46,997 bases of DNA from Spirochaetota bacterium. GTDB taxonomy: Bacteria > Spirochaetota > UBA4802 > UBA5550. The translations under genes and the position numbers were made by a program. Positions 36,208 through 40,212 of this stretch are shown here, piece after piece. The notes beneath the pieces are model-generated. The model was not told where the DNA came from. It saw only the letters and a list, made by a program, of their open reading frames with translations, and did no database searches. How positions within the stretch are numbered: position 1 is the first letter of the stretch; each line of letters begins with the position of its first letter. Location: positions 1-46,997 of the forward strand of contig QKCL01000055.1 of assembly GCA_003246895.1 (NCBI GenBank). Direction: 5' to 3'.

Positions 36208-37311
36208 ATGGATAAAATCAAAATACTCTTAACATCTGACATGCATATGGGGAAACCACTTAATCTCCCCGGAATATGTACGGAACTGAGACAACAGACA
36301 CTGAAAAAGATATTCAAACTTGCCGGTGAACACGACATTCTTCTTGTTGCCGGTGACTTTATTGAACTATCTTCAATAGACAATTCCCTCATGGATGAAA
36401 TAAAAGAAAACTTTGCAATACTTGCTGAAAAGGGCATTGAAATATACTATACTCCGGGAAAATCCGAACTTGATCAAGAAGGGAATGTACACAGTTCCCT
36501 GACATCAGTATCTGAAAAGATAAACATTTTTTCAGACATCAACGAAACAAGATCATACAGATCACAAAAGGGAGACATTATTATCCACGGGATTCAGGCC
36601 GGAAGCAGGTTCCACCCCTCTGAAGTTCTCACGGCAGGAAAGAAAAGCTTCAACATCGGGCTTTTCCACAAAAATTTTTCTCCTCACCTGTCCGAAACCG
36701 CTGTCCATGGACATATCACCAAAGAAGACCTCAAATCACTGAGGTTTGATTTCTATGCAATGGGAATGAACCATTCTTTCAAGGTTTTCCGCTCCATGGA
36801 CAGAATAATAGGAGCTTATGCCGGAAGCCCTGAACCATGTTCAATTACAGAAACCGGGGACAGATTTGTTCTTTCCCTCATAACAGAAGGACACCATCTC
36901 AAAAGCATAAAGAGAATTCAGGTAAATTCAACCTCAATAGCAAACCTTCATATAGACTGTAAAGAATTCAACTCCGCTCATGACCTGATTTCTCATATAA
37001 ACGCAAAAACCGATGAGAAAAACATTTATTCCGTTACACTGGACGGAATGCGTTCATTTAAAATTGAAGAACTCCTTAAGGATTACGCAGCAGAAACCGG
37101 CAGGCATTTGAAAATTACAGACAACTCAGTACCGGATCTGGATATGCAGTTTCTTTCAGGAAATGAAAAGCCCAATTCCTTCTATTCTGTAATTCTTGAC
37201 CTGATGAAGGATATCTCCACAGAAGATGCAAACAGAGATGCTATTTCCAGGGCAATATATAATTCGTTCGGTAAAGGCAAAAACCGGGGGACAGAATATT
37301 GCAGTTTCTAG
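36208..37311 (+). CDS. SbcD/YhaO-like metallophosphoesterase with eroded active site
   Basis: The 367-residue protein has the calcineurin-like phosphoesterase fold of SbcD/Mre11. Motif I (LLTSDMHMG) and motif II (LLVAGDFIEL) are kept. Motif III, normally GNHD, reads TPGKSELD; motif V, normally GHxH, reads AMGMNHSF. The motif IV His (GLFHKNF) is present. With several metal ligands lost, nuclease activity is doubtful. Its C-terminal third (from about residue 230) looks like the capping and helical part of SbcD. It overlaps by 13 bp with the coiled-coil protein gene that follows, the order seen for sbcD-sbcC and yhaO-yhaN. Confidence 0.78.
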   Translation: MDKIKILLTSDMHMGKPLNLPGICTELRQQTLKKIFKLAGEHDILLVAGDFIELSSIDNSLMDEIKENFAILAEKGIEIYYTPGKSELDQEGNVHSSLTSVSEKINIFSDINETRSYRSQKGDIIIHGIQAGSRFHPSEVLTAGKKSFNIGLFHKNFSPHLSETAVHGHITKEDLKSLRFDFYAMGMNHSFKVFRSMDRIIGAYAGSPEPCSITETGDRFVLSLITEGHHLKSIKRIQVNSTSIANLHIDCKEFNSAHDLISHINAKTDEKNIYSVTLDGMRSFKIEELLKDYAAETGRHLKITDNSVPDLDMQFLSGNEKPNSFYSVILDLMKDISTEDANRDAISRAIYNSFGKGKNRGTEYCSF

Positions 37312-39224
37312 ATCTGAAAATTATGTGTTCCGGCCGTTTAACCATGGTGGAGCTTCGGGATTCCATAAATGTTTTGAAAGACACAAATCCGGATATTCTG
37401 GAAGACATAGAAAAAGGCATCTCATACATGCTCACAGATGCTGAGGGAGAGGAATTTGCCCATATAGAATCCATTGACGCAGCAGTTGATTGCGGGAATG
37501 CCCGTTGTGACATCTCCTCAAATAAAAAAAATACAGACACCGAGATTAAACTGTACGAAAGGGAAACATTCCTGAAGACCTCAACTCCCGGAGATTCCCC
37601 TCTCGGAAAAACTGCCTATTCAGATGAAATATACAGATCTTTTATAAATGCTGCCGCTTCAAATTTTAAACTTTCAGAAGATCCGGAAAATTTAATCAGG
37701 GAAACAAAAAAGGAACTGGAACTGCTTGAAATTAAAAAACTCAGACGTGATAAACTTGTCAGGGAACATGACAGGCTGGAAAAAAAACTGAATAAACTCA
37801 TTAAGGAGAAATCTGAACTGGAGCAGGAAATCGAGGTCCTGAATAAAATAAAACTGATAAAAGCCGAAATTGAAAAAATCGAAAGCGAAAAAAAAGATAT
37901 AACTGAAGAACTCCATGAAATTCAAGAAATTCACGATTCCATAGGCTACCTGGAGGAGAGGATTCATAATCTGTCCATGATTTCCGGGAAAAGACTGAAA
38001 AATTCCGATCTCGACAATATTCAGAATATTTTCAGTTCCATGAGGGATTTTTCAGCCAGGGTTGAAAACAGGAACACGGAACAAAGCTCTCTTCTGAAAA
38101 AAATGATAAAACGCAGTTCCGCTGTTATAATATTCATACTGACTATCTTTATGTTCTTTTTAAGCAGAAACTCCTTCAATTTTCGGGAAACCGCAGAGTC
38201 TCTTTCAGTTTTAATTTATGCTGGAGCTCTCATGGTAATTGCCGATGCAGTCATTTCCATTACCAGATACCATAGAAATAAAAAATTTCTAAAGCTCACC
38301 CATGATGAAATAGAAAGAAAGAAAATTGAACTCAATGAAATTCTGGAGCTCAACATTGAAGATGCAGAACGGATAAATTATGAGATATATGAATATCTTG
38401 GACAGTACTTTGAGGAGTACACAGAGGCTGAGGAACTGGGCCATGAAAAAAGAACACTGAAGAACAGAATAAAGGTCAGGCGCAATGAGGAGACCCTGAA
38501 GGAGAACATGAGCCTGTTAAACAGGGAAATTAAACAGAAACAGAAGGATCTTGAGATACTTGTACATGGACTTGGAAAGAATTTAAAGGAAAAAATTGGC
38601 CTGGATCCCATAAACATTATTATCTCCGACACCAGTGATGAAATTAATACATTGATAAATTCAATAGATGAGACAGAAGGAATATGCAGTGAAGCCCGAA
38701 AGGAAGCGCAGGAATATGACAGGCTCGACAGGGAAGGCCCCTATTTTGATCAGAGGATAGAATACCTTCAAAAAAAGATTGATACCGCCCTTGAGCAAAA
38801 TGATATCATAAAGATACTTTCTCCTGTCATAGACAAAAGTCTCGCCGAATGGAAAGACAGGTTTGCAGGAAACTGTTCAGAGAACATAGCAGAGCTTTTC
38901 AATGAACTCACAGAGAACAGTTTTTCCGAAACAGTAAACGGCAGTACCGTTGATAATTACCTTAGAAATTCAGAAGAAATTCCAGGCTTCGATGAGAAAG
39001 GTCACAGATTGTTGCTCATTCTCATTCAGTATGCAATTTCCACTTCAAACACTTTCCGGCTCCCTCCCTACATTGTCAACCTTGACAGAAACCTTGATTT
39101 AATTAAAAATATTCACTCCTTCAGAAGAATAATGCTTGAATTGTCTGCCCATAGACAGGTCATTATATTCTCCACATCCGATCTGCCGGATACTGAATCT
39201 TGTGAGCTGAATATAAATGGATAA
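37299..39224 (+). CDS. YhaN/SbcC-like coiled-coil membrane protein lacking a normal Walker A
   Basis: The 641-residue protein has the layout of YhaN: an N-terminal lobe, coiled coil (about residues 130-230), two membrane helices (about 271-288 and 302-322), a second coiled coil and a C-terminal lobe. MQFLDLKIMCSGRLTMVELR followed by INVLKDTNPDILEDI matches the family start, but at the site of the P-loop (normally GPNEAGKST). The C-terminal Walker B/D-loop region reads LPPYIVNLDRNLD without the usual Asp-Asp. A GDSPLGKT string at residues 98-105 fits a P-loop pattern but lies in the wrong place. Start is TTG inside the previous gene. Likely a pseudo-ATPase partner of the SbcD-like protein. Confidence 0.7.
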   Translation: MQFLDLKIMCSGRLTMVELRDSINVLKDTNPDILEDIEKGISYMLTDAEGEEFAHIESIDAAVDCGNARCDISSNKKNTDTEIKLYERETFLKTSTPGDSPLGKTAYSDEIYRSFINAAASNFKLSEDPENLIRETKKELELLEIKKLRRDKLVREHDRLEKKLNKLIKEKSELEQEIEVLNKIKLIKAEIEKIESEKKDITEELHEIQEIHDSIGYLEERIHNLSMISGKRLKNSDLDNIQNIFSSMRDFSARVENRNTEQSSLLKKMIKRSSAVIIFILTIFMFFLSRNSFNFRETAESLSVLIYAGALMVIADAVISITRYHRNKKFLKLTHDEIERKKIELNEILELNIEDAERINYEIYEYLGQYFEEYTEAEELGHEKRTLKNRIKVRRNEETLKENMSLLNREIKQKQKDLEILVHGLGKNLKEKIGLDPINIIISDTSDEINTLINSIDETEGICSEARKEAQEYDRLDREGPYFDQRIEYLQKKIDTALEQNDIIKILSPVIDKSLAEWKDRFAGNCSENIAELFNELTENSFSETVNGSTVDNYLRNSEEIPGFDEKGHRLLLILIQYAISTSNTFRLPPYIVNLDRNLDLIKNIHSFRRIMLELSAHRQVIIFSTSDLPDTESCELNING

Positions 39225-40212
39225 AAACGGACAACTTACATTTACCGATGATCCCCTTTTAAATGAAACCTCTGAAATTTATCAGTTCATTTCTGAAGGG
39301 AAATTCAGGGAAGCGATCAAGAAAGCCGACAAACTCATGAATGTGAACCCCGAGTACCCAGGACTCATTGAAGCATACCGCACTGCAAAATTCTGGAGCA
39401 ACAGAGAGAAGGAAGTCAGAAAAACCGAAGAGGGGAAAAAAACAGCGGATTTTCTCATGGAGGAGTGGGAGAACTACGAAGAGTATGCATCCGGAAGCGG
39501 TATGATAAACTCCGCGCCATACAGGGCCGCCATGCGTTTCATTTTTTTCAAGGCCTCAAACCACTACAAGCTGGCTTTTCAGAAAAATGAGGATACTGTA
39601 AACAAGTTTGATCTTCTCATCCGCCTGGGGGAATGCTTTCTGAGATTAAAGGAACATCAGTACGCAGTTGAAACCCTGGAATATGCAAAAAATTCATACA
39701 GTTCAAATGCCAGGCTTCTCTTTATCCTTGGAGAGTCCTATTATCACATAAATGAAATTCCCAAAAGCCTCATGAACTTTCAGGAGGCTTTTCTCATCAA
39801 CCCTGCAGAGGTGGATCTGTCCCTCATTGAAGCCAGGCCCATACGTGAAATAATTGCAATAATAATAGATTCCGGTAAAAAATACAGGGACATAAGGGAA
39901 TGGATACCGGTTTACGGTGTAATCCACGACATATTCTACATCAAAAAAAATATTAACAAACACCATCTTGAAATTCTCAAGAGCGAAGTTTACAGCCTTG
40001 AAAACAGCTATGTAAAGCTTTCAAAAGATGAAATCGAGGAAACAAATATACTCCCCAGAATGCTCAACAAATATCTCTGGCTCTATGACTATTATGAAAA
40101 TCAGAATGTGAACCCGGAAAACACGGACCAGATAAGAAGCAGACTCCTGAACCTTGACTATGACCTTTTCCACGAATATTTCAACAGCCCTCCACATAAA
40201 AAGAGAATTTGA
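39217..40212 (+). CDS. TPR-repeat protein
   Basis: The 331-residue protein has an N-terminal repeat (IYQFISEGKFREAIKKADKL) and a central array (LLIRLGECFLRLKEHQYAVE, LLFILGESYYHINEIPKSLM). An uncharacterised C-terminal helical region follows. It lacks a signal peptide and is probably cytoplasmic. It overlaps the preceding gene by 8 bp, so it likely belongs to the same complex or pathway. Similar TPR proteins are common in spirochaetes; function unknown. Confidence 0.78.
   Translation: MDKNGQLTFTDDPLLNETSEIYQFISEGKFREAIKKADKLMNVNPEYPGLIEAYRTAKFWSNREKEVRKTEEGKKTADFLMEEWENYEEYASGSGMINSAPYRAAMRFIFFKASNHYKLAFQKNEDTVNKFDLLIRLGECFLRLKEHQYAVETLEYAKNSYSSNARLLFILGESYYHINEIPKSLMNFQEAFLINPAEVDLSLIEARPIREIIAIIIDSGKKYRDIREWIPVYGVIHDIFYIKKNINKHHLEILKSEVYSLENSYVKLSKDEIEETNILPRMLNKYLWLYDYYENQNVNPENTDQIRSRLLNLDYDLFHEYFNSPPHKKRI

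Follow-up and report, generated by a model that had tools for sequence, protein, structure and literature searches.

Stepwise loss of nuclease and ATPase motifs in a spirochaete gene module related to Mre11-Rad50 and predicted to be membrane-anchored

A stretch of 46,997 nucleotides from a Spirochaetota bacterium (contig QKCL01000055.1, hereafter the window) carries, at positions 36208-40212 of the + strand, three co-directional open reading frames (ORFs) that encode a phosphoesterase (MPE), its coiled-coil partner (CC) and, as the third gene, a TPR protein (Table 1). An earlier note on this DNA had described the first two as a pair of the SbcCD or YhaO-YhaN type in which both active sites look eroded. 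Its account of overlapping genes with long frames is borne out by the three ORFs, which overlap by 13 and 8 nt. The MPE and CC genes are adjacent and co-directional, as in the YhaO-YhaN pair, and the CC start codon is a TTG that aligns with the ATG of relatives. Below, L codes denote loci, G codes genomes and f codes families.

Table 1. Positions of the three genes and of the motif places and segments within them
Feature	Position	Strand	Remark or basis
MPE, Mre11/SbcD/YhaO-like phosphoesterase, 367 aa	36208..37311	+	motif III and first motif V His lost
GNHD place in MPE, now GKSE (residues 84-87)	36457..36468	+	motif alignment
GHxH place in MPE, now GMNH (residues 186-189)	36763..36774	+	motif alignment
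CC, Rad50/SbcC/YhaN-derived coiled-coil protein, 641 aa	37299..39224	+	Walker A, signature, Walker B and H-loop lost
P-loop (Walker A) place in CC, now NVLKDTNPDILEDIE (residues 24-38)	37368..37412	+	motif alignment
CC membrane helix 1, predicted (residues 270-288)	38106..38162	+	hydropathy
CC membrane helix 2, predicted (residues 304-322)	38208..38264	+	hydropathy
Order-specific CC segment, YEFLLQYFEEY type (residues 353-392), beside membrane	38355..38474	+	profile; best-conserved CC region
Walker B place in CC, now YIVNLDR (residues 591-597)	39069..39089	+	motif alignment
TPR protein, 331 aa	39217..40212	+	best conserved module member

The window MPE scores above the cut-off of Pfam Metallophos (25.6 bits, cut-off 21.5) and below that of NCBIfam TIGR00619 sbcd (31.6 vs 77.65 bits). 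It retains DMHMG at motif I, GD at motif II, His154 at motif IV and the second motif V His (His189). The absence of GNHD and of the first His of GHxH, as reported earlier, was confirmed at the aligned places, where motif III reads PGKSE and motif V reads GMNH. Five of the seven metal ligands are present; Lys85 stands in place of the Asn and Met187 in place of the first motif V His, while the position of the proton-donor His of GNHD is occupied by Ser86. The seven ligands are enumerated in DP1, and re-protonation of the leaving group is assigned to H85 of Mre11, in PMC4996933. The MPE structure model (pLDDT 86.5) has a predicted fold in which both the phosphoesterase core and the capping domain of Mre11 are present. 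Mre11 or SbcD entries fill the top of both fold searches, and the best Mre11 match, 4tug_D, superposes with a Z of 26.3 and a root-mean-square deviation (rmsd) of 3.0 over 280 aligned residues (model residues 3-309). Two C-terminal helices of the model (323-334 and 340-355) sit at the place of the Rad50-binding helices of Mre11, and the longer matches have large rmsd.

In the window CC, none of Walker A, ABC signature, Walker B and H-loop is found at its aligned place: the P-loop position holds NVLKDTNPDILEDIE and the Walker B position YIVNLDR. The earlier note had listed only the P-loop at its usual place and Walker B as missing. A relocated P-loop was considered and rejected: the string GDSPLGKT, found out of register at residues 98-105, is missing there in the six sister proteins. 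Because of this absence, and because a composition shuffle of the window CC gave a probability of 0.015 for at least one string of this type, we take it to be a chance occurrence. The loss of the Walker motifs is shared by seven genomes, the window's included, with four genus codes (g1, g5, g9 and g10), and all seven frames are full-length and open; we refer to these as the Walker-lost clade.

No AAA family (Pfam AAA_27 or AAA_23) matches the Walker-lost CCs tested (window, L031 and L034), whereas the CCs of L038, L043, L070 and L139 match an AAA model. In a profile comparison, Walker-lost and intact CCs nevertheless aligned over their full length (probability 100, E 1.5e-63). A sequence search of solved structures with the Walker-lost profile returned chiefly coiled-coil noise. 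The CC structure model (pLDDT 73.6, pTM 0.42, with intact relatives in its alignment) best matches Rad50 heads, with Z of 13.5 (rmsd 3.7, 231 aligned residues) and 13.4, and SMC-type rows lie near; Foldseek returned mostly SMC-like proteins with Rad50 on top and poor superposition. The SbcCD/YhaO-YhaN-type ancestry proposed earlier is supported by these fold searches, by the relatives and by the trees described below. Hydropathy predicts the two membrane helices that the earlier note had seen, which supports a membrane-anchored build, and basic residues lie on the coil side of both, which suggests a hairpin with the heads in the cytoplasm. Near these helices, the order-specific segment scores at least 43 bits in 41/41 CCs of the window's order with a profile built from these same 41, and it is found in 0/7 outgroup CCs (<1 bit).

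An MPE match was found in 43/59 genomes searched. Within the window's order, 43 of the 46 genomes (G000-G045) contain parts of the module, and the other three (G006, G012 and G036) lack every one of these genes, apart from a weak TPR match in G036 (E 6e-6); the module is all-or-none within the order. All three genes occur together at 41 loci (the window, L031-L069 minus L062, L149 and L098, with a few TPR genes cut by contig ends), in agreement with the proposal that the TPR gene is a third member. Contig ends remove one or two module genes in G044 (L062, which is without CC and TPR) and G045, and L098 is counted as the G038 locus from its contig coordinates. The MPE and CC genes of relatives overlap or lie at most 14 nt apart in 37/37 loci measured.

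The TPR gene has a wider distribution. A profile scan of 84,980 species gave 67 loci, labelled as metagenome-assembled genomes or isolates of Spirochaetota or Treponema, with L093 labelled just "uncultured bacterium". Those with at least 39% identity on a long enough contig have MPE and CC upstream, whereas this is true of none of the more distant loci (L105-L137); there the TPR gene precedes a long gene, whose protein ends in GreA domains in L170. In L168, L169, L170 and L172, among further loci from outside the order, the gene directly after the TPR gene encodes a long product (about 740 to 900 aa), and the pairing recurs across the phylum. The module TPR belongs to the same Spirochaetota-wide family, but in the window's order it has left that neighbour and sits behind MPE-CC; in 10/10 order genomes tested, the long GreA-type protein is encoded on another contig. 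As the TPR gene pairs with the GreA-type gene outside the order and with MPE-CC inside it, we read it as old in the phylum and as having joined MPE-CC here. The N-terminal TPR motif QLTFxDDP was rejected as a link to MPE-CC, since TPR proteins from outside the order, encoded away from MPE-CC, carry the motif too.

The motif tables cover 42 MPEs and 41 CCs from the order, together with 7 outgroup pairs. The outgroup pairs with a CC of the same compact size (L070, L138 and L139, from f18 and f27, two other Spirochaetota families with intact compact pairs) carry GNHD, GHFH, GxNExGK[ST], LSCG and two membrane helices. In the order, GNHD is found in 0/42 MPEs and the ABC signature LSxG, judged by eye, in 0/41 CCs. 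Walker A is present in 34/41 CCs, that is, in 34/34 outside the Walker-lost clade, and Walker B in 33 of these 34, the remaining one (L037) being masked there. Residue counts for the MPE follow the sequence motif I Asp and His, motif II Asp, motif III Asn and His, motif IV His and the two His of motif V. They are 6, 6, 7, 7, 7, 7, 7, 7 in the outgroup (n=7, one sequence truncated); 20, 20, 20, 0, 2, 20, 19, 20 in f2 and f4-f7 (n=20); 11, 11, 11, 0, 0, 10, 1, 11 in f1 with an intact CC (n=11); 7, 7, 7, 0, 0, 2, 0, 7 in the Walker-lost members of f1 (n=7); and 4, 0, 0, 0, 0, 0, 0, 2 in f3 (n=4). Family f3 (L068, L069, L098 and L149) is a mirror image, in which nearly all metal ligands are gone from the MPE and Walker A and B are kept in the CC. 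In L067 and L042, motif III reads GEHE, with the His present and the Asn gone.

Judged by these motifs, the MPE changed order-wide, and loss of the ATPase followed in a single sub-clade. The CC of most order members, with Walker A and B but no signature, may still bind ATP. The earlier note had held that relatives with normal motifs at the same locus would mark this copy as a decaying one. Such relatives exist for Walker A but not for GNHD, and the order-wide change in the MPE followed by a later ATPase loss indicates that the window does not carry a single decaying copy of an otherwise normal locus.

The Walker-lost proteins are monophyletic both in the CC tree (100/99; built without L037, which is partly masked, and L140, L143, L146 and L148) and in an independent TPR tree (100/100; built without the partial L050 and L051). 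The TPR tree nests the clade inside f1 (100/99). For the close Walker-lost pair L034/L035, the ratio of non-synonymous to synonymous substitution rates (dN/dS, Nei-Gojobori), a check that the earlier note had proposed, is well below 1: 0.177 for CC, 0.115 for MPE and 0.011 for TPR. Within this CC, the values are 0.32 for the N-terminal head and 0.14 for both the coil and the C-terminal head; for comparison, whole-CC values are 0.12-0.22 in three intact pairs and 0.06 in an f3 pair. Mean pairwise identities were compared between Walker-lost CCs (6/7 rows, L035 being dropped because it is nearly the same as L034) and intact f1 CCs (8/11 rows). Both heads of the Walker-lost CCs have lost conservation (N-head 20.0 vs 34.3, C-head 25.3 vs 44.7), and the C-coil stands at 23.3 vs 32.2. 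The N-coil (30.2 vs 31.6), the pre-membrane (35.1 vs 41.2) and post-membrane (28.8 vs 28.9) regions and residues 362-384 (51.9 vs 64.0) are near intact levels, and the membrane helices themselves give 21.7 vs 21.9.

Based on these results, we consider it probable that the module is a membrane-anchored complex of the Mre11-Rad50 type, YhaO-YhaN-like, in which loss of the nuclease was followed, in the window's clade, by loss of the ATPase, and which persists as a structural scaffold, the TPR protein serving as adaptor. Given the lost motifs and a separate SbcD in the same genome, we infer that the module no longer cuts DNA and is kept for its architecture.

Several observations weigh against this reading. 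The older GreA-type neighbour of the TPR gene outside the order means that its link to MPE-CC may be merely operonic. The CC model has moderate scores, and the intact relatives in its alignment may bias it toward a head fold, so that a two-lobe head on a long antiparallel coiled coil is a tentative assignment. The CC tree, taken alone, puts the Walker-lost clade outside f1, probably owing to its long branch. The dS of the pair L031/L033 is saturated for MPE and TPR, so that for these two genes only L034/L035 bears on selection. The end branch of the window CC is the longest in the CC tree (2.45), and the terminal CC/TPR branch ratio has a median of 5.9 in the Walker-lost clade (5 rows) vs 2.4 elsewhere (26 rows; computed without L034, L035, L037, L050, L051, L061 and f3), which together show that constraint on the CC is relaxed to some extent. 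Finally, with five of seven ligands in place, metal binding and weak hydrolase activity are possible in the window MPE.

On a rival view, the MPE would remain a metal-dependent hydrolase whose unusual site (GExE for GNHD) acts on a non-DNA substrate, the CC being its membrane anchor. D11, H13, D50 and H189, which we take to be one Mre11 metal site (the lost Asn and His presumably being the other), are present in 38/38 non-f3 MPEs, window included. In f2 and f4-f7 the motif III Asn position is always acidic (Glu 18/20, Asp 2/20), losses among the other six ligands are very rare and the motif III His is kept in 2/20. In f1, however, the Asn position holds K, R, P, T, I and other residues, the first motif V His is gone in 17/18 sequences and the motif IV His in 5/7 of the Walker-lost ones; together with the loss of nearly all ligands in f3, this makes a surviving hydrolase rather unlikely.

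The long CC branches would also fit ordinary pseudogenisation, in which the pair is losing function and headed for loss and the intact frames reflect recent inertia, as would the absence of the whole module from three genomes of the order. We find this quite improbable, because the loss is common to seven genomes of four genera with open frames, gene order and tight spacing persist, and both genes of the L034/L035 pair have low dN/dS. The claim that the locus is not in random decay thus stands as regards retention (open frames, low dN/dS) and is weakened by the fast evolution of the CC, with its signs of relaxation. A working DNA-repair nuclease-ATPase using non-standard residues is hardly credible, despite the Mre11-like and Rad50-like predicted folds, as the window's MPE lacks the catalytic His and two metal ligands, its CC lacks Walker A, signature and Walker B, and the genome encodes a separate SbcD with GNHD and GHLH, though the accompanying SbcC reads in two frames. 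This SbcC (L144, G000:C32, 3596-6720, minus strand) lies behind the intact SbcD as ORFs of 279 and 744 aa in different frames, through a frameshift either in the gene or in the assembly.

An anti-phage system was considered and set aside: the window CC has only a weak PADLOC PbeC match, the window MPE and TPR have none, and the neighbouring genes look like housekeeping genes. These are trmD, rimM and rpe (by eye) and genes for PASTA and hexapeptide nucleotidyltransferase proteins (Pfam); the PASTA and rpe-like genes run divergently from the module. Intact CCs match PADLOC LmuB (Lamassu) and similar models (L043, 9.6e-14; L070, 3.4e-20), probably as generic Rad50-like heads.

Among known systems, the module shares with YhaO-YhaN (which we take to be SbcEF) the adjacent genes for a phosphoesterase and a long coiled-coil ATPase. 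The compact outgroup CCs L070 and L139 score above the cut-off of Pfam PF13514 AAA_27, presumably the YhaN family, and align over their full length with the CC family. It differs in the MPE without GNHD, in the added TPR gene and new membrane-side segment, and in the Walker-lost CCs tested that match no AAA model. SbcEF is termed poorly characterised in PMC6452273. Compared with Mre11-Rad50/SbcCD, the predicted folds of MPE and CC are alike, but the module has no complete di-metal site with proton-donor His and no ATPase site, and has a predicted membrane hairpin at the end of the coil. In Rad50, the coil ends in a zinc hook. The B-subunits of eukaryotic replicative DNA polymerases belong to a different complex and are not known to have a coiled-coil ATPase partner or membrane helices. 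They are a precedent for an inactive phosphoesterase turned scaffold, being described in PMC4996933 as inactivated calcineurin-like phosphoesterases converted to that role. Inactive phosphoesterase scaffolds thus have precedents, and what is new here is a bacterial pair inactivated in both partners, stage by stage. To our knowledge, no bacterial pair of the Mre11-Rad50 type has been described that retains both partners in inactivated form, and a literature search of partial coverage on YhaN/YhaO, SbcC/SbcD, SbcEF, pseudoenzymes and membrane-anchored Rad50 found no report of the MPE-CC family.

In the scaffold that we favour, the coiled coil of the CC would end in a hairpin of two membrane helices in the place of the Rad50 hook, and both head lobes would be cytoplasmic. 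The MPE, with its Mre11-like core, capping domain and C-terminal helices at the Rad50-binding place, would dock at the base of the coil, and the TPR protein would bind the assembly, perhaps via the order-specific segment near the membrane. Assembly in the window's clade would be independent of ATP. We would guess that the module links the inner membrane to a partner in the cytosol, with which the TPR protein would make contact.

More tentatively, the history may be one of staged exaptation, in which a membrane-tethered machine of one spirochaete order lost its nuclease, acquired a TPR partner as well as a new segment beside the membrane and, in one clade, dispensed with ATP too, to become a purely structural SMC-like scaffold for a spirochaete-specific process. 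The order displays every stage: an intact outgroup, a nuclease site altered, the ATPase lost, and the metal site lost with the ATPase kept. With all of these side by side, the usefulness of the architecture of such a complex without catalysis becomes testable.

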